Positions 9,384-50,947 of a stretch of DNA of 64,000 bases are shown piece after piece (the first letter of the stretch is position 1; each line of letters starts with the position of its first letter). The notes under the pieces were generated by a model that was not told where the DNA came from, did no database searches, and was given only the letters and a program-made list of their open reading frames with translations. Source of the DNA: Chloroflexota bacterium (GTDB taxonomy: Bacteria > Chloroflexota > Anaerolineae > UBA1429); assembly GCA_012729455.1 (NCBI GenBank), contig JAAYDC010000019.1:1-64000 (forward strand), read 5' to 3'. A program made the position numbers and the translations under genes.

Positions 9384-10691
9384 TTATTTGAACGGTGCCA
9401 GCACATCCGCCAGCACGGGTTGTCCAATCTCTTGCAGCTCGTAGCGCACCCGCTGGCTGGGCTGACTGATCTTGATCAGCTTGCCCAGGTCGATCGGCGT
9501 AGCGATCAGCACCAGGTCGCAGGGTACCTGACGGATGGTGGCTTCCAGATCAGCCACCTGAGCTGCACCGTAGCCCATCGCAGGCAAGATCGGTCCCACT
9601 GCGTATTTGCGGTAGGTTTCGGCGATCGACCCCACGGCATGCGGGCGCGGATCAACCACCTCGGCGCCAAAGCGCTCCGCCGCCACCCATCCGGCGCCGT
9701 AGCGCATCTCGCCGTGCGTAAGGGTGGGGCCATCCTCCACCACCAGCACACGTTTGCCGCGTATGGCAGCGGGATCGGGCAGCGAGATCGGTGACGCCGC
9801 CTCAATCACCACGGCGCGCGGGTTGAGCTCGCTCACCGAGCGGCGCACGGCGTTAACCGCCTCTGGCTGGGCGGTGTCGATCTTGTTCAACACCACCACA
9901 TCAGCCATGCGCACGTTGGCCTGTCCTGGGTAGTAGCTGCGTTCGTGGCCAGGGCGATGTGGATCGGCTACGGTGATGTGCATATCGGGACGGTAGAACG
10001 GCAGGTCGTTGTTGCCGCCATCCCACAATATCACGTCGGCCTCCTGTTCGGCTGCCGCCAGGATCTGGCCGTAATCGACACCGGCATACAGCACCAGACC
10101 CTTTTCGAGGTGCGGCTCGTACTCTTCGCGCTCTTCGATGGTGCACTCGTAACGATCCATATCCTCTTTGGTGGCAAAGCGCTGGCATGCCTGAGCAGCC
10201 AGGTCGCCATAGGGCATCGGGTGGCGGATCACCACCACACGCTTACCCCAGCCCTGAAGAATATCCGCCACCTTGCGCGAAGTTTGGCTCTTGCCGCAAC
10301 CAGTGCGCACCGCACACACCGCTATTACCGGCACCTTGCTCTTTAGCATGGTGGCTTCGGGGCCCATCAGGCGGAAATCGGCACCCGTCGCCAGCACGCG
10401 CGAAGCCAGGTCGTGCACGGTGGTGGATGACAGGTCGCTATATGCCAGGATCGCCTGTTCGATGTGAAAACGCTTGACGAGTTCCTCCAACTCGCTTTCG
10501 GGAAAGATCGGAATGCCAGCAGGATAGAGCGCCCCTGCCAGCTCGGGCGGATAGCGCCGATTATCGATGTTGGGGATCTGGGTGGCGGTAAAGGCGGCTA
10601 CCTGATACCGCTCGTCGTTGCGCAACGCCACGTTAAAGTTGTGAAAGTCGCGCCCGGCAGCGCCCATGATCAGGGTACGAATTGGCTGCAT
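9384..10691 (-). CDS. Cyclic 2,3-diphosphoglycerate synthetase-like GTPase (COG2403 type)
   Basis: A 435-residue protein. ATG 10691 sits behind GGAGG. Residues 1-130 form a Rossmann-like N-terminal domain (MQPIRTLIMGAAGRDFHNFN). A P-loop follows at about 142-152 (VRTGCGKSQ), then WDGGNND and a VLNKID guanine-specificity-type motif. The layout matches archaeal cyclic 2,3-diphosphoglycerate synthetase and the wider COG2403 predicted GTPases, which also occur in Chloroflexota. Archaeal homologues close 2,3-diphosphoglycerate into a cyclic anhydride that protects proteins. Whether this bacterial member makes that solute is unproven. It appears monocistronic. Confidence 0.7.
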   Translation of the reverse strand: MQPIRTLIMGAAGRDFHNFNVALRNDERYQVAAFTATQIPNIDNRRYPPELAGALYPAGIPIFPESELEELVKRFHIEQAILAYSDLSSTTVHDLASRVLATGADFRLMGPEATMLKSKVPVIAVCAVRTGCGKSQTSRKVADILQGWGKRVVVIRHPMPYGDLAAQACQRFATKEDMDRYECTIEEREEYEPHLEKGLVLYAGVDYGQILAAAEQEADVILWDGGNNDLPFYRPDMHITVADPHRPGHERSYYPGQANVRMADVVVLNKIDTAQPEAVNAVRRSVSELNPRAVVIEAASPISLPDPAAIRGKRVLVVEDGPTLTHGEMRYGAGWVAAERFGAEVVDPRPHAVGSIAETYRKYAVGPILPAMGYGAAQVADLEATIRQVPCDLVLIATPIDLGKLIKISQPSQRVRYELQEIGQPVLADVLAPFK

Positions 10692-32645: not shown

Positions 32646-32657
32646 GTGCAATACACT

Positions 32658-34121
32658 ATGTTTATTGAGCTCGAAAACATCCACAAGCACTTTGGCCGCG
32701 TGCATGCCAACGCCGGCATTTCACTGACGGTACCCGAGGGCCGCATCATGGGCCTGTTGGGAGAAAACGGGGCTGGTAAGACGACTCTGGCCAAGATCCT
32801 GTCGGGCTACCAGACCCACGATGCCGGCACGATCTACCTGGATGGCAAGCAGGCCTCCTTCCGGTCGCCCGCGGAGGCGATCCGCGCCGGCATCGGCATG
32901 CTCCATCAGGATCCGCTGGATGTTCCCGCCCTGAGCGTGCTGGAGAACTTTGAGTTGGGCGGCCTGCAGAGCGGTCTGCGCAAGTCGCGCGCCAGTGCTG
33001 CCAGGCTGCAGGAGCTGTGCAAGCGTTTTGGCTTTAGCCTGGATGCCGATGCGGCCGTCAGCAGCCTGACAATCGGTGAGCGCCAGCAGCTCGAGATCGT
33101 GAGGTTGCTCGATCAGGGCGTGCAGGTGCTGATCCTCGATGAGCCCACTACCGGTATTTCGTCGCCGCAAAAAGTGCTCCTCTTCCGCACGCTGCACCGC
33201 CTGGCCAGTGAGGGCATCAGCATCATCTTTGTCTCGCACAAACTCGATGAAGTCGAGCAGCTGTGTTCGAGTGTGACGGTTCTGCGGCGCGGACAGGTGG
33301 CAGGCAGCCTCGAATCGCCCTTTTCGCCGGCTGATCTGGTGCTGTTGATGTTTGGCAAGGCACTCGACATTACCGAACGCCCGGATGTGCCACTGGGCGA
33401 TAGCCTGGTCGAGTTGCGCGATGGCACCATCCGCACCTACCGATTGACAATGGATCACTTGACGCTGGAACTGCGCGCCGGCGAAGTGGTCGGCCTGGCA
33501 GGCCTGGAAGGCAGCGGACAGCAGCTGCTGATGCGCGCGTGCGCGGGCATTCAGCCCCTGGCAGGCGGAACGCTGGCCATCGCAGGGCAGGATATGACAC
33601 GCAAAAACTATCGCGAGTTTGCGCGCCTGGGCGTGCGCTTTGTGCCTGCCGCGCGCCTCGAAGAAGGGCTGATCTCGGGGATGTCGATCCGCGAACACTA
33701 TGCCCTGATTGACCCCAACCAGGGGAACGTGATCGCCTGGGGCAATGCCCAGACACAGGCCGCTGAGAAGATCAGCGAATATAACATCGTGGGCAGCCCC
33801 GATTCACTGGTGCAGGCCCTCTCGGGCGGCAACCAGCAGCGCCTGTTGCTGGCGATGCTGCCCGAAAAACTGGCACTGCTGATCCTCGAGCACCCCACGC
33901 GCGGCCTGGATATTGGATCGAGCCGCTGGATCTGGGAGCACCTCCTGGAACGCCGCCTTCAGGGCACAGCTATCCTGTTTACCTCGACCGATCTGGACGA
34001 GCTGGTCAAATACAGCGACCGCGTCATCGTCTTTTCGGGGGGGATGATGTCAGCCCCTACACCAGCCAGTCAGGTCACCAGCGAAAGCCTGGGCTATATG
34101 ATCGGGGGAAATCTGCGATGA
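32658..34121 (+). CDS. ABC transporter ATPase with two nucleotide-binding domains
   Basis: A 487-residue double ATPase of the nucleoside/sugar (RbsA/BmpB-like) type. The first domain has Walker A GENGAGKTT, signature LTIGERQQLE and Walker B VLILDEPTT. The second has a lysine-free GLEGSGQQ in place of Walker A, signature LSGGNQQRLL and ILEHPTRGLD as Walker B. A non-canonical second site is normal for the family. ATG 32658 is assigned; GTG 32646 is in frame but falls in the terminator tail. The stop overlaps the first permease gene (ATGA). Confidence 0.92.
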   Translation: MFIELENIHKHFGRVHANAGISLTVPEGRIMGLLGENGAGKTTLAKILSGYQTHDAGTIYLDGKQASFRSPAEAIRAGIGMLHQDPLDVPALSVLENFELGGLQSGLRKSRASAARLQELCKRFGFSLDADAAVSSLTIGERQQLEIVRLLDQGVQVLILDEPTTGISSPQKVLLFRTLHRLASEGISIIFVSHKLDEVEQLCSSVTVLRRGQVAGSLESPFSPADLVLLMFGKALDITERPDVPLGDSLVELRDGTIRTYRLTMDHLTLELRAGEVVGLAGLEGSGQQLLMRACAGIQPLAGGTLAIAGQDMTRKNYREFARLGVRFVPAARLEEGLISGMSIREHYALIDPNQGNVIAWGNAQTQAAEKISEYNIVGSPDSLVQALSGGNQQRLLLAMLPEKLALLILEHPTRGLDIGSSRWIWEHLLERRLQGTAILFTSTDLDELVKYSDRVIVFSGGMMSAPTPASQVTSESLGYMIGGNLR

Positions 34122-35164
34122 GGGCGCGCACCCGTCTGACCAACCTGCCGCTGGGAGCCGCGCCCGTTGTGCTCACCTTGGTGAGCAGCAGCCTGATCCT
34201 GCTGGCCGCAGGAGCCAACCCCTTTGAGGCGTTTGCCAACATCATCGGCGGGGCATTTGAGAGCTGGCGCAAATTCGCGGATGTACTGGTAGCCTTGGTG
34301 CCGCTGATGCTGTGCGCCGCGGGGATGCTGATCACCTTTGCAGCCGCCCTGTGGAATATCGGCATCGAAGGGCAGATCATCATGGGCGCGCTGTTTACCA
34401 CCGCGGCAGTCCGGTGGTTTCCGCTGCCCTCTGCGCTGATCCTGCCGATCACCATCCTGGCGGGCATGCTGGGCGGGGCGTTATGGGGACTGCTGGTGGG
34501 CCTGATGCGCACTCACGGGCATGTCAACGAGATCTTTGGCGGGTTGGGGCTAAACTATATCGCCATCGCCCTGACCAACTATTTCATCTTTGGGCCGTGG
34601 AAATCGGTTGACGGCGCCACCATGTCGGGCACCGATCCCTTCCCCGCCGCCGCCACCATGCCGCTCATCGCCGGCACGCGCGCCAGCTGGCCGCCGCTGA
34701 TCATCGCGCTGCTTGCCATCGCAGGCGTCTATCTGGTGCTTAACTATACCCGCTGGGGATTGCATCTAAAAGCCATTGGCTTGAACGCCCAAGCCGCCGG
34801 ACGCATGGGCATCCGCACCACCGCCAACATCCTGCTGGCCTTTGCAGCCTGCGGGGCACTCGCCGGGCTGGCAGGTTCGTTCCAGACCACGGCGGTGTAT
34901 TACCGGCTGATCCCGTCCATCTCGAGCGGTTACGGCTACCTCTCGCAGCTGGTCGTGCTGCTGTCGCTTCTGCGCGCCGAATGGGTGCCGTTGATCGTGC
35001 TCTTTTTCTCGATCATCTCAGTGGGCAGCCCGCGCCTGGAGCTGCGCATGCAGTTGGATTCCTCGCTGGGCGGTATCCTGCAGGGCAGCATTGTGCTCTT
35101 TTTCCTGCTGACGCGCGGGTTGCAGCAGCGGCTGAGCCAGCGTCGGGAGCGTAAACATGGCTAA
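34118..35164 (+). CDS. ABC transporter permease (BmpC/YufP-like)
   Basis: A 348-residue permease of the branched-chain/ribose-type (BPD_transp_2) family. It has about ten hydrophobic segments, the conserved AGMLITFAAALWNIGIEGQIIMGA loop and GLHLKAIGLNAQAAGRMGI before helix six, which is the ATPase-coupling region. It overlaps the ATPase by 4 bases and the second permease by 8. With that permease it should form a heterodimeric channel for the bound nucleoside or sugar. Confidence 0.92.
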   Translation: MRARTRLTNLPLGAAPVVLTLVSSSLILLAAGANPFEAFANIIGGAFESWRKFADVLVALVPLMLCAAGMLITFAAALWNIGIEGQIIMGALFTTAAVRWFPLPSALILPITILAGMLGGALWGLLVGLMRTHGHVNEIFGGLGLNYIAIALTNYFIFGPWKSVDGATMSGTDPFPAAATMPLIAGTRASWPPLIIALLAIAGVYLVLNYTRWGLHLKAIGLNAQAAGRMGIRTTANILLAFAACGALAGLAGSFQTTAVYYRLIPSISSGYGYLSQLVVLLSLLRAEWVPLIVLFFSIISVGSPRLELRMQLDSSLGGILQGSIVLFFLLTRGLQQRLSQRRERKHG

Positions 35165-36116
35165 CTCGCTCTTGGTCGAAACGATCGCCTCGGTGATCGC
35201 CTCCGCTGCGCCGTTGGTGTTTGCAGGCGTAGGAGAGACGATTACTGAAAAGGTGGGCATCACCAACCTCTCGCTGGATGGCAGCATCCTGCTTTCGGCC
35301 ATGGCGGGCTTTGCTGCCGCCATGCTAAGCGGTTCTTTGCTGGTCGGGGTTATCACAGCCATGCTGGTGGGGGCGCTGGTCGCTGGCATTGTGGCGACCG
35401 GCAGCATCGCGCTGCGTCAGGACCAGGTGGCAGTAGGCTTTGTGCTGACGGTGCTGTGCACGGCACTGAGCTCGTTCCTGGGCAAGCCCTATGTCCGGGT
35501 GCCCGGCCCGAGCATGCCGCATTTGCCGATCCCGTATCTGGCGGATATCCCCGTGATCGGGCCGATCTTTTTTAACCACGACTTGCTCGTCTACCTGAGC
35601 TATGTGGTGATCTTTGGCACAGTCTTTCTGTTCAACCGCACCCAGTTGGGCTTGCGCCTGCGCGCAGTTGGCGAACGGCCCGAAGCCGCTTTTGCGCGCG
35701 GCATCAACGTCAACCGCTATCGCTACCTCTTCACCTGCTTGGGGGGCGCCCTGGTGGGTCTGGGCGGCGCGACGTTTTCGCTTTCCGTCAAACTGGGCTG
35801 GAGCTACCAGCACACCGCCGGATTTGGCTGGATCGCCCTGGCGATCGTGATCTTTGGCGGCTGGAATCCGCTGCGTGTGGCGCTGGGGGCATACCTGTTT
35901 GGTGCGCTCAACTCGCTGGCCAGCATCCTGCAGCCGGCCTTTCCAACCGTGCCCACCCAGGTGTTTCAGACAGCACCCTTTGCCTTTATGATCCTCACGT
36001 TGCTGATCATGAACGGGGATGTGCTGGAGCGCCTTCCGCGCGGCAGCCGCTGGCTGCGCAAGTTGCTGCAGGGCCAGGCGCCCGCCGGACTGGGCAAGCG
36101 CTTCCAATCGGATTGA
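35157..36116 (+). CDS. ABC transporter permease (BmpD/YufQ-like)
   Basis: A 319-residue second permease. It starts with VFAGVGETITEKVGITNLSLDGSILLSAM, the conserved second-permease motif, and carries LGLRLRAVGERPEAAFARGINVNRYRYLF as coupling helix. It ends the transporter operon. Its last 150 bases face the 3-prime reading frame of the convergent AEC gene remnant. Confidence 0.92.
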   Translation: MANSLLVETIASVIASAAPLVFAGVGETITEKVGITNLSLDGSILLSAMAGFAAAMLSGSLLVGVITAMLVGALVAGIVATGSIALRQDQVAVGFVLTVLCTALSSFLGKPYVRVPGPSMPHLPIPYLADIPVIGPIFFNHDLLVYLSYVVIFGTVFLFNRTQLGLRLRAVGERPEAAFARGINVNRYRYLFTCLGGALVGLGGATFSLSVKLGWSYQHTAGFGWIALAIVIFGGWNPLRVALGAYLFGALNSLASILQPAFPTVPTQVFQTAPFAFMILTLLIMNGDVLERLPRGSRWLRKLLQGQAPAGLGKRFQSD

Positions 36117-37017
36117 CGCACCAGCCAGAGCACGACTGTCAATGTAAAGCCGCTCAGCAGCGTCGAAATAAAGATCACACTGGTGACATATTCGGCATCG
36201 CCATCGAACTCGATCGCCATCAGCGCCGAGGTGACGGCAGTGGCGTGGAAGCCTCCGCGATGCCGACACTGCGCGCCAGGCCTGTCAAGCCCATCAGAGG
36301 TGCCAGCGCAAAGGCGATCGCCGCCCCCACTACCAGCCTAAGGAACACACCAATAGCCACCTGCGGATAGCGCTTACCCAGGCGGGTTTGCGAAAGCTGG
36401 ATCCCCAGCAACAGCAGCATCACCGGGATTGAGCCCTGACCGATCAGGTCAATCGCACTGGCCACCGGCGTCAGCAGGCTGGTGTGCAGCACCCTCAGCA
36501 GGATCGCCAGGAGAAAGGCGTACATACCCGGCAGTTTGAGCATCTTGATAAAGGCCGAACGCGCCCCGTGCTTGGAGCGGGCTGCAAAAAGGCCGAAAAG
36601 GTGTTGCCGATCAAGTTCGAAGCCACAAAAAAGATGGTGCCGAGTTCCAGGCCGGGTTCGCCAAAGGCCAGCAGGATCATGGAAAGGCCAAAATTGCCGG
36701 CATTGACAAAGGCCACGATGAGGATCAGGGCATCGGCAGTGGCGGGCTCCCAGCGCAACAGGCGCCCCACCAGCCAGGAAACCGCGATCAGGATGGCGGT
36801 GAACACCACCGCATAGCTGATCATGCTGACAAAAGCGCTGGCCCCGAGCTGCGAGCGCGAGATCGATGAAAAGATCAGGCAGGGGTCAGGATATAGAGCG
36901 CCATACGCGAGATGCTGTGCTTGTCGACGTGCAGCCACTTGCCCAGCATCACCCCCGCGCCGACCACCAAAAATGCCGGCAGAATGTTGTTGATAAAGAT
37001 CGAGAGGAATGCATCCA
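35966..37017 (-). pseudogene. AEC (auxin efflux carrier) family transporter, three frameshifts
   Basis: A minus-strand gene broken into four reading frames that line up as one AEC permease. The segments are MDAFLSIFINNILPAFLVVGAG to ALYILTP (from 37017), then CLIFSSISRSQLGASAFV to GNTFSAF, then AARSKHGARSAFIKMLKLPGMYAFLLAILL to EASTP, then TAVTSALMAIEFDGDAEYV to the end. Each break is repaired by adding one base: to the G4 run at 36882-36885, the A5 run at 36586-36590 and the GG at 36242-36243 (plus-strand letters). Repaired length is about 300-350 residues, normal for the family. The final frame continues antisense into the ABC permease as far as 35966. Either true decay or homopolymer sequencing error. 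Confidence 0.85.
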
Positions 37018-37029
37018 TCCGCGCAGCCC

Positions 37030-37755
37030 CTAACGTAGCACCAGATTGAGCGCCATCACAATCAAAAAGCCGATGATAATATAACGAAAGACGGCCGAAC
37101 TGATGTGCCGAAAGATGCGCGTGCCAATATAACACATCAGCATGGCCGGCACCATCAGCAAGAGCCCCAGACGCACGTCCTCCCAGACCAGCAGGCGGTT
37201 AAGCGCCATCTGCAGCAACCGCCACAGGGTGGTAAAGGTGAAATAGACCGATAACAGCCCCTTGATGCGATGCTTATCCCAGCCGCGCAGCAGGCAGTAG
37301 AGCACCACCGGCGGGCCGCCGGTTGCCACGGCACCGCCTACAAATCCGCCCACCACCCCGGCGATGTAGGCACCCGGCCAGGCACGCTTGAGCAACGCCT
37401 TTTTGGGGCTCCACAACGACACCAGGGCGCCCATGATCGTCATGGCCGCCAGGATGAACTCGAGGTAACGCGTATCGCTGCGCGCCAGCGCCCAGGTGCC
37501 CAGCGCCGAAGCCGGCAACGAGAGCGTCAGCACCGGCCAGATCTCGCGCCAGGGGATGCTGGAGCGCACGCTCAAGGCGTTTTGCACCATGAGCGGTAAG
37601 GACGAGATCGTCACCAGCGCAACCGCTTGGTACATCGGCATGAGGGTGGCGTACAAAGGGGTCGCCACCAACCCATAGCCAAAGCCGGTGATGCCCACTA
37701 CCAGGCCAGCAACCGTGGTAATCAGGATAACCCAGAGATTTTCAAGGCTCAGCAT
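37030..37755 (-). CDS. TauE/SafE family anion permease
   Basis: A 241-residue membrane protein with the two-repeat layout of TauE/SafE sulfite and sulfoacetate exporters. The first repeat is AGLVVGITGFGYGLVATPLY and the second, after about residue 125, is AGVVGGFVGGAVATGGPPVVLYCLL with the conserved GGPP. About eight helices. ATG 37755 is chosen; the frame extends to 37821 but would overlap the tyrS promoter. It lies just upstream of the AEC gene on the same strand (12 bases apart), so the two were probably cotranscribed. Confidence 0.82.
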   Translation of the reverse strand: MLSLENLWVILITTVAGLVVGITGFGYGLVATPLYATLMPMYQAVALVTISSLPLMVQNALSVRSSIPWREIWPVLTLSLPASALGTWALARSDTRYLEFILAAMTIMGALVSLWSPKKALLKRAWPGAYIAGVVGGFVGGAVATGGPPVVLYCLLRGWDKHRIKGLLSVYFTFTTLWRLLQMALNRLLVWEDVRLGLLLMVPAMLMCYIGTRIFRHISSAVFRYIIIGFLIVMALNLVLR

Positions 37756-37784
37756 TTGACCGTTCTCGACTCGGATCGTAAAAT
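37756..37784 (+). promoter_or_regulatory. Putative promoter of tyrS
   Basis: TTGACC (37756-37761), a 17-base spacer and TAAAAT (37779-37784). A leader of about 45 bases leads to AAGGAG and ATG 37835. The leader is too short for a T-box. Confidence 0.6.
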
Positions 37785-48460: not shown

Positions 48461-50947
48461 ATGCCAGGAACGCTTGATCTCGGCGGTACATGGCTGATCA
48501 AGGGCATCGACGGACGGCGCGGTGCGCCCGAGAGCTTTGTAGCCGAAACAGTTGATCTGCGCACCTTTATCGAGGCGCAGGTGCCGGGCGAGGTGCACCT
48601 CGACCTGCTGCGACATGGCATCATTGCCGACCCAAGGGTCGGCACCAACGCCCTCGAGGCGCGCTGGGTCGAGGAGCAGTACTGGATCTATCGCAGAGAT
48701 CGACGTGCCCGCCGAGGCTGTGGATGCTCCGTGGGCAGAGCTGGTCTTTGAGGGTCCCGCCCTGGATGCCGAGGTTTACCTCAATGGAGTATGTGTGGGC
48801 GAGCACCTCAATGCCTTTTACCCCTGCCGCCTGAACGTAGCCGGCAGACTGCGTGCCGGGGTTAACATCCTGGCAGTGATCCTGGATGCCGGACTGCACG
48901 GGGTGGGTGAGCGCTCCGCCAGTGAATATCTGCCCGGCCGCGACGATGCCCCGCTGCACAAGCGTATGTGGCTGCGCAAGCCGCAGTACCAGTTTGCCTG
49001 GGATTGGAGTCCGCGCCTGGTGAACGTGGGCATCTTCCGCCCGGCACGTCTGGAATGCCAACCGCGCATCGACCAGGTCTCGGCGATCCCGCGCCTCTCG
49101 GCCGATCACACCAGCGCCGAACTCCAGGTGCGCGTACACCTGGTAAACCCCCCACCCTCACCAACGGCATGCTGACGCTGCACATCGACGACGAGACCTT
49201 GCCGCCGGGCAGCCGCGAGGTCGAGATAACGCCAGGCGCCAGTACCATCGAGCTGTCTGCAACGATCGCTAATCCGCGGTTGTGGTGGCCACGTCCGCAT
49301 GGCCAGCAGGCATTCTACACCCTCCGTGTGGAACTGAACGTGGCTGACGAGGAGGCCGATTGCCGCGAGGTGCGCACGGCGGTGCGCAGTATCGAGCTGC
49401 TGCGGCCGGCACATCCCGAGGGTGGTGAATACTTTACCCTGGCCGTCAACGGCACCAGGGTATTTTGCAAGGGCGGCAACTGGGTGCCGGCCGACATGAT
49501 CTATGCCGATGTGACCCCCGAACGCTACCGTGCCCTCATCCAGGCGGCTGCGGACGAAAACATGAACACGCTGCGCATCTGGGGCGGCGGGTTGTATATG
49601 GACCACGCCTTTCTGGATATCTGCGACGAGCTGGGCATGCTGGTATGGCACGACTGCATCTTTGCCCGCAGCAAGTACCCCGGCGGCGACCCGGCCTTTT
49701 TAAAGGAGGTGCGCCGCGAGGTCCGCTATGTAGCGCGCGAGCTATCCGTGCACCCCAGCCTAGCGGTGTGGTGCGGCAACAACGAACTCGAATGGGGCGC
49801 CTGGGAATGGGGCTATGACCGCGGATGCGCCCATCCCGACTATGCCCTCTTCCACCTGGAGCTGCCGCGCATCTTTAGCGCCGAAGACCCCTCGCGCCCC
49901 TACTGGCCGAGTTCGCCTTATTCGCCGGATGATACTACCCCTAACGCCACCCACATCGGCGACCAGCATCCCTGGCACGTGTCGATCGGCGTTAACCGCG
50001 AAGAGTTCTACGCTTACCGCGGCGACGACAGCCGCTTCCCCAACGAGGGCGGCGCACTGGGATGCTCAGTACCGGCCACGCTGCGCCAGTTCCTGCCAGA
50101 AGGCGAACAGCACTACCTCTCGCGCAGCTGGGAATACCACGACAACGAGATCGCTTGGTGCGCCAACAGCCTGATGGGCGAGGAATGGCTGCAGATCTGG
50201 CTGCAGCTGGATGCCAACCAGCTCTCGCTTGAGGATTACGCCTTTTACAGCGGTACGCTGCAGGCCGAAGCCCTTCTCGAGTACATCAACAACTTTAGGC
50301 GGCGCATGTGGAGCACTTCGTCAGCCATCTTTTGGATGTACAACGACTCCTGGCCCGTCACCCTGGGGTGGACCACGATTGACTATTACTTGCGGCGCAA
50401 GCTCGCCTATCACGTGGTGCGGCGCGCTTTCGACCCCATACAGGCCGTGCCGGTCGCCAGCGACGGCAAACTGAGGATCTATGGCGTTAACGATACGCTG
50501 GCGGGCTGGGAGGGCATCCTGCAGGCCGGAATGGTGCGCTACGACGGCGCCGACACTCATGAAGTGCGCCTGCCCATCACTCTGGCGCCCAACAGTGCCA
50601 CGCTCCTTACAGAGCTGGCTATCCCCAAAGACGCGCGTTACGCCCCCGACCAGGCGCTGGCCTTTAGCGTGCTGTGGCAAAATGGCCAGCCGGTGCGCCA
50701 GAACCGCGCCATGTTTTGCCGTCATCATGAGGTAACTTGGGCCAAGCCGGAGGTGCATATTCAGCGCACGCCGCAGGGCGTTGCCTTTGTCAGCAACCAA
50801 TACGTCTGGGGTGTGTGCCTGGACCCCAATGGCGAACAGGATCTGCCCGACGACATGTTTGACCTGCTGCCCGGGGTGCCCTACCACCTGCCCTGGCCGG
50901 CTGATGCAGAGCTGCCGGTTATCGCACGCTGCGCCAACCTGGCATAA
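48461..50947 (+). pseudogene. GH2 beta-mannosidase, interrupted by two frameshifts
   Basis: Three overlapping reading frames join into one GH2 enzyme of about 829 residues, the normal beta-mannosidase length. Frame 1 (48461 to about 48695) is the N-terminal sandwich LDLGGTWLIKG to EEQYWIYR. Frame 2 (to about 49150) continues EIDVPAEAVDAPWAELVFEG to ELQVRVHLVN. Frame 3 runs to 50947. The catalytic acid/base is in WCGNNELEWG and the probable nucleophile in RFPNEGG. FWMYNDSWPV also fits. The second break is mended by one extra C in the C6 run at 49148-49153. The first lies at an AGAG stretch (48695-48698) with one base too many or two too few. Either decay or sequence error. Confidence 0.88.

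Follow-up and report, generated by a model that had tools for sequence, protein, structure and literature searches.

The AEC-family (PF03547) gene at positions 37018-36116 on the minus strand of the window, the 64,000-nucleotide stretch of Chloroflexota contig JAAYDC010000019.1 that was analyzed, is most probably a real and very recent pseudogene, provided that sequencing reads agree. The loss is dated as very recent because the gene carries three frame breaks and lacks its stop codon, yet the encoded pieces are about as conserved as the corresponding parts of intact relatives. An earlier reading of the same DNA, made from the sequence only, had left the choice between an assembly error and a very recent pseudogene; the second option is supported by the lost stop, by multi-base lesions elsewhere in the genome, by a k=127 assembly signature, and by the clustering of the breaks.

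The gene is not a single open permease frame but is spread over four frames. A tblastn search with the open reading frames (ORFs) of relatives recovered four pieces in succession, in frames -1, -3, -2, and -1, and overlapping pieces are also present in the ORF listing. The AEC ORFs of 15 relatives were aligned to the window in a frame-aware manner; these relatives are uncultured Chloroflexi/Anaerolineae MAGs from a set of 40 genomes, none of which belongs to the same genus. Piece 1 (36887-37018, minus strand, as are all pieces) encodes the N-terminus in 44 codons from an ATG and, like piece 4, was delimited by tblastn and the frame-aware alignment. It is followed by piece 2 (36591-36878, 96 codons), piece 3 (36244-36585, 114 codons), and piece 4 (36116-36238, 41 codons), which ends at the C-terminus found in relatives. 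In a profile scan of pieces 1-3, piece 2 matched positions 43-133 of PF03547 with 32.5 bits (match at 36591-36884) and piece 3 matched positions 195-297 with 34.8 bits, both above the cut-off of 25.7, and piece 1 (45 aa) had no match. Family membership is thus established by the profile cut-off for pieces 2 and 3 and by collinear, full-length likeness to the 15 relatives. Across the genome, PF03547 matches were found in three places, namely the two pieces in the window, which exceed the cut-off in this search too, and one gene on contig C11.

Gene order around the locus is conserved. On contig C38 of relative G001, an ABC permease gene, an intact AEC gene, and a TauE/SafE-family gene occur in the same order as in the window, so that the inactivating lesions described here are seen against an intact orthologue in the same setting; relative G007 likewise keeps the permease-AEC order. 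Of the 299 residues aligned between the window AEC gene and the syntenic G001 protein, 205 are identical, and the break sites are the only gaps. The flanking genes are both intact, as the sequence-only reading had stated: the convergent ABC permease gene is open at 35157-36116 (plus strand) and encodes 319 aa with 75% identity along its length to the G001 counterpart, and the TauE/SafE-family gene (PF01925, 119 bits) is open directly upstream at 37030-37761 (minus strand) and likely shares a transcript with the AEC gene. The permease gene is part of a set of ABC importer genes (an ATPase and two permeases) at 32646-36116 on the plus strand, for which NCBIfam "putative B6 ABC transporter" models scored best, far below their cut-offs.

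The frame-aware alignment to relatives located exactly three breaks in the AEC gene, each with a net change of -1. Break 1 (36879-36886) was recovered with all 14 relatives that cover it, nine of which place it at 36885/36886 and five at 36879/36880. Break 2 (36586-36593) was recovered with 15 of 15 relatives and is placed at 36589/36590 by ten, at 36586/36587 by three, and at 36592/36593 and 36574/36575 by one each. All 15 relatives place break 3 (36238-36243) at 36239/36240. Stops within the aligned frames were searched for in the same alignment and none were found. A homology-free, order-4 coding HMM also switched frames near all three sites. The claim that four frames line up as one AEC permease was therefore borne out by both tblastn and the alignment to 15 relatives, as was the claim of three one-base losses of the same sign; the comparison with AEC relatives that had been proposed as a check gave collinear pieces and returned the same three breaks. 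Relatives do not tell which base was lost at each break, because all three sites vary between genera.

The sequence-only reading had also placed every break in a same-base run, and this holds in part. An 8-nt stretch of the AEC gene contains a run of four or more at 8.5% of positions, of five or more at 2.3%, and of two or more at 85.7%. The G4 and A5 runs at the first two breaks are accordingly above chance for this gene, which holds 14 runs of four or more, and the GG at the third is not.

A fourth lesion of the AEC gene is the loss of its stop codon. In 14 of 14 checked relatives the AEC ORF ends at the equivalent of 36115-36110, within a codon of ~36115, whereas the frame in the window stays open for 49 codons beyond that point and closes at 35966. 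The resulting read-through tail (35966-36115, 49 codons and a stop, minus strand) lies antisense to the 3' end of the permease gene. The end of the gene, earlier given as 35966, should consequently be moved to the family end at ~36116. The spacer to the permease stop is shorter in the window by ~6 nt relative to G007 and by ~7 nt relative to G001, and a small deletion that removed the AEC stop would be the simplest reading.

The encoded protein has retained the hallmarks of constraint. Eleven relatives share 64 invariant residues, 61 of which are kept in the AEC pieces; in leave-one-out comparisons among the relatives themselves, the corresponding values lie between 67/75 and 67/67. In relative-rate comparisons, the five outgroups used gave 24/27, 34/28, 37/17, 23/25, and 22/22 changes specific to the window gene and to G001, respectively. 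No consistent acceleration of the AEC pieces was seen, as only one of the five outgroups indicated an excess (chi2 7.4), and the intact TauE gene has a similar excess with one of three outgroups. Values of pN/pS were 0.17-0.40 for the individual AEC pieces, compared with 0.24 for the permease and 0.44 for TauE. Relaxed constraint on the AEC protein, a mark of pseudogenes, was looked for in these comparisons and not seen, and there is no missense excess. If the gene is a pseudogene, its conserved pieces are compatible only with a very recent loss. More missense changes would be expected had three or four indels arisen neutrally, so that either the loss is very recent, or indels are unusually frequent, or some of the breaks are errors.

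Other genes of the genome are broken as well. The coding HMM, which detected 200 of 200 simulated losses, was run on the window and 37 further stretches (778,418 nt, or 29.5% of the genome, with 709,445 coding nt). It reported 264 same-strand frame switches, of which 55 were flagged; in all genomes the breaks were judged by eye among flagged switches, and some unflagged switches in the first 381 kb of the window's own genome were seen as well. This resulted in 16 breaks judged to lie within one gene, distributed over 11 genes. The same procedure yielded no gene judged broken in G008 (359,596 coding nt; 13 of 103 switches flagged) or in G010 (296,516 coding nt; 21 of 81 switches flagged, counted after three of 20 stretches that read as N were left out). 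Among the relatives, the HMM scan was confined to G008 and G010. In a homology-only scan of 281,079 nt of the window's genome, seven candidates were found, three in the AEC gene, two in a GH2 gene, one in ParB, and one weak candidate in stretch L071. The homology-only scan of relatives returned nine candidates, of which three came from using the broken pieces of the window as queries, four had net changes of +5 to +19, and two were taken to come from a spurious window ORF used as a query.

The lesions in these genes are of many sizes. A DapA (DHDPS)-family gene (L071 19146-19993, contig C6, plus strand) has lost 46 nt relative to four of four references. The gene for KorB, the beta subunit of a 2-oxoacid:ferredoxin oxidoreductase (L079 11534-12434, C15:75534-76434, plus strand), has lost 5 nt relative to four of four relatives; this broken copy is the only one in the genome, and relative G005 has no copy at all. 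The second AEC-family gene (L090 8903-9794, contig C11, minus strand) carries a deletion of ~26 nt near 9600 according to two of four references; the third gave -29 at low identity, probably with the wrong ORF, and the fourth only matched a wrong ORF over 28 columns. The two AEC genes detected in this genome are thus both broken, and the assembly has no intact one. An abhydrolase gene (+1) and an Fe-dependent alcohol dehydrogenase gene (-1) were each called with four of four references, a UxuA-like gene (-1) with three of four (the fourth giving +2), ParB (-2) with one reference, and a GH-like gene (+1) with one reference that is an adjacent paralogue. Within the window, a GH2 mannosidase-like gene (48461-50941, plus strand) has breaks near 48695 and 49149 of -2 and -1 (-4 by tblastn), and its G001 counterpart is intact with 860 codons. 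Finally, a membrane glycosyltransferase-like gene (L097 6691-8157, contig C21, plus strand) has several breaks and a stop; three breaks were called by the HMM and entered the count, six and a stop are seen in alignment to a 43% identical relative, and this gene appears to be an older pseudogene. Taken together, the lesion sizes look like a mutational spectrum, not like one type of base-calling error.

An intact gene from whose consensus three bases were dropped, by homopolymer undercalling or thin coverage, is the strongest rival, and on the evidence it is unlikely. In its favor, the three losses share one sign, two of them lie at G4 and A5 runs above the chance level of the gene, and the encoded pieces are free of missense decay; indeed, the lack of a missense excess and the placement of two of three breaks at runs of four and five speak against real decay. 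That a single-copy KorB gene is broken by 5 nt, which is odd for an anaerobe even if G005 does without the gene, speaks against it as well. Errors throughout the genome were at first favored as the main cause because housekeeping-like genes (KorB and the DapA-family gene) are broken, and this explanation was dropped in view of the -5 lesion in KorB, the -46 lesion in the DapA-family gene, and the k=127 contig ends.

The contig ends bear on how the assembly was made. A comparison of 54 of the 60 ends identified six overlap pairs and four same-orientation pairs, always of exactly 127 nt, and the single other contig-end match was the masked contig C14. The constant overlap points to a k=127 de Bruijn assembly, very probably of short reads with few indel errors, which would argue against dropped bases. 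The value 127 is a common maximal k of SPAdes, for which Illumina reads are the usual input, and Ion Torrent reads can likewise enter a de Bruijn assembly. One comparison of platforms puts the indel error rate of Illumina much below that of Ion Torrent or PacBio and has error rising with run length on platforms except PacBio (PMC4719071). In another study, a phage SPAdes contig with 127-bp terminal repeats was read by its authors as a complete phage genome (PMC9009655). Positions 1-127 of the window match the end of contig C26 without a difference.

The distribution of lesions over runs also disfavors undercalling. The 778,418 nt sampled contain 7,783 runs at least four bases long, including 307 of six to eight, and almost all are unharmed. 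Few breaks touch runs, and both of those at runs of six are gains of a base, not losses. Errors driven by runs would not be expected to spare the long runs and yet hit the AEC gene, with its 14 runs, three times. An artefact of this kind would consist only of single-base losses in runs and be worst in long ones; what was found are lesions of -46, -26, -5, -2, and +1, with runs of six to eight spared, and a lost stop that is not a run error. A locally thin stretch could cluster errors, but the neighboring genes are clean. Three independent breaks in one gene are, moreover, improbable, with P = 0.001-0.005 for some gene to receive at least three of 13-20 independent breaks among 720 gene-sized pieces. 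The homopolymer undercalling proposed by the sequence-only reading is therefore not supported.

Two further explanations keep the locus functional, and both were rejected on the frame-aware alignment to relatives. That the pieces are separate small genes whose products act as split subunits would fit the start codons present near some breaks in the piece frames, and it is very improbable given that each break interrupts a conserved segment, that adjacent pieces join without the loss of a residue, and that the AEC gene is undivided in every relative compared. Programmed ribosomal frameshifting at three sites to give one full protein would fit collinear, conserved pieces and is extremely improbable, as it would require three successive shifts and a 49-residue tail without counterpart in relatives, in a gene that occupies one open frame in all 15 relatives compared and in a genome where many unrelated genes are broken too.

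For a very recent pseudogene, the course of events may be sketched as follows. Selection on the AEC gene would have been relaxed, and replication slippage and small deletions would then have hit it. A ribosome starting at the ATG at 37018 would depart from the family frame at break 1, and the frame closes at 36875, so that the product predicted from the ORF table has 47 residues, nearly all family-like, and no complete permease would be made. The upstream TauE gene and the convergent permease gene would presumably keep working, and the AEC loss would be one of a larger number of fresh breaks across the genome, which also struck the only other AEC gene. The 11 freshly broken genes, among them both AEC genes and the only KorB gene, lie in 29.5% of the genome, and extrapolation suggests ~37 in total, whereas no gene was judged broken in the scanned parts of the two relatives of the family. 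On a more speculative view, which is less likely than not, the lineage would be at an early stage of genome-wide gene loss, a Chloroflexota of the free-living type on its way to a reduced genome or to dependence on a host.

A literature search joining AEC, pseudogene, and Chloroflexi found no paper; a recent pseudogene of this sort is an ordinary finding. Several one-base losses in a gene are not automatically a sequencing artefact, and contig-end overlaps together with the genome-wide lesion spectrum can weigh on that question without reads. The concern of the sequence-only reading that the locus matters for the scoring of gene loss was fair, and its direction is the opposite: the gene should be counted as lost unless reads disagree. 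Work on gene content in this family should, pending read support, score the genome as without an intact AEC gene.

Compared with known systems, the window gene resembles AEC permeases (PF03547) in profile match and collinearity and differs from them in not being one frame and in having lost its stop. It shares with 454, Ion Torrent, or nanopore undercalling the single-base losses, two of them at runs of four to five, and departs from it in that the assembly looks like a short-read de Bruijn product, long runs are spared, and lesions are of many sizes. Recent bacterial pseudogenes are described as having a deletion bias, with small deletions (PMC4224334). The window gene differs from such pseudogenes in its little or no missense decay and in its host, an uncultured Chloroflexota and not an endosymbiont, and it is like them in its several small deletions, its intact neighbors, and the other fresh pseudogenes in the same genome.
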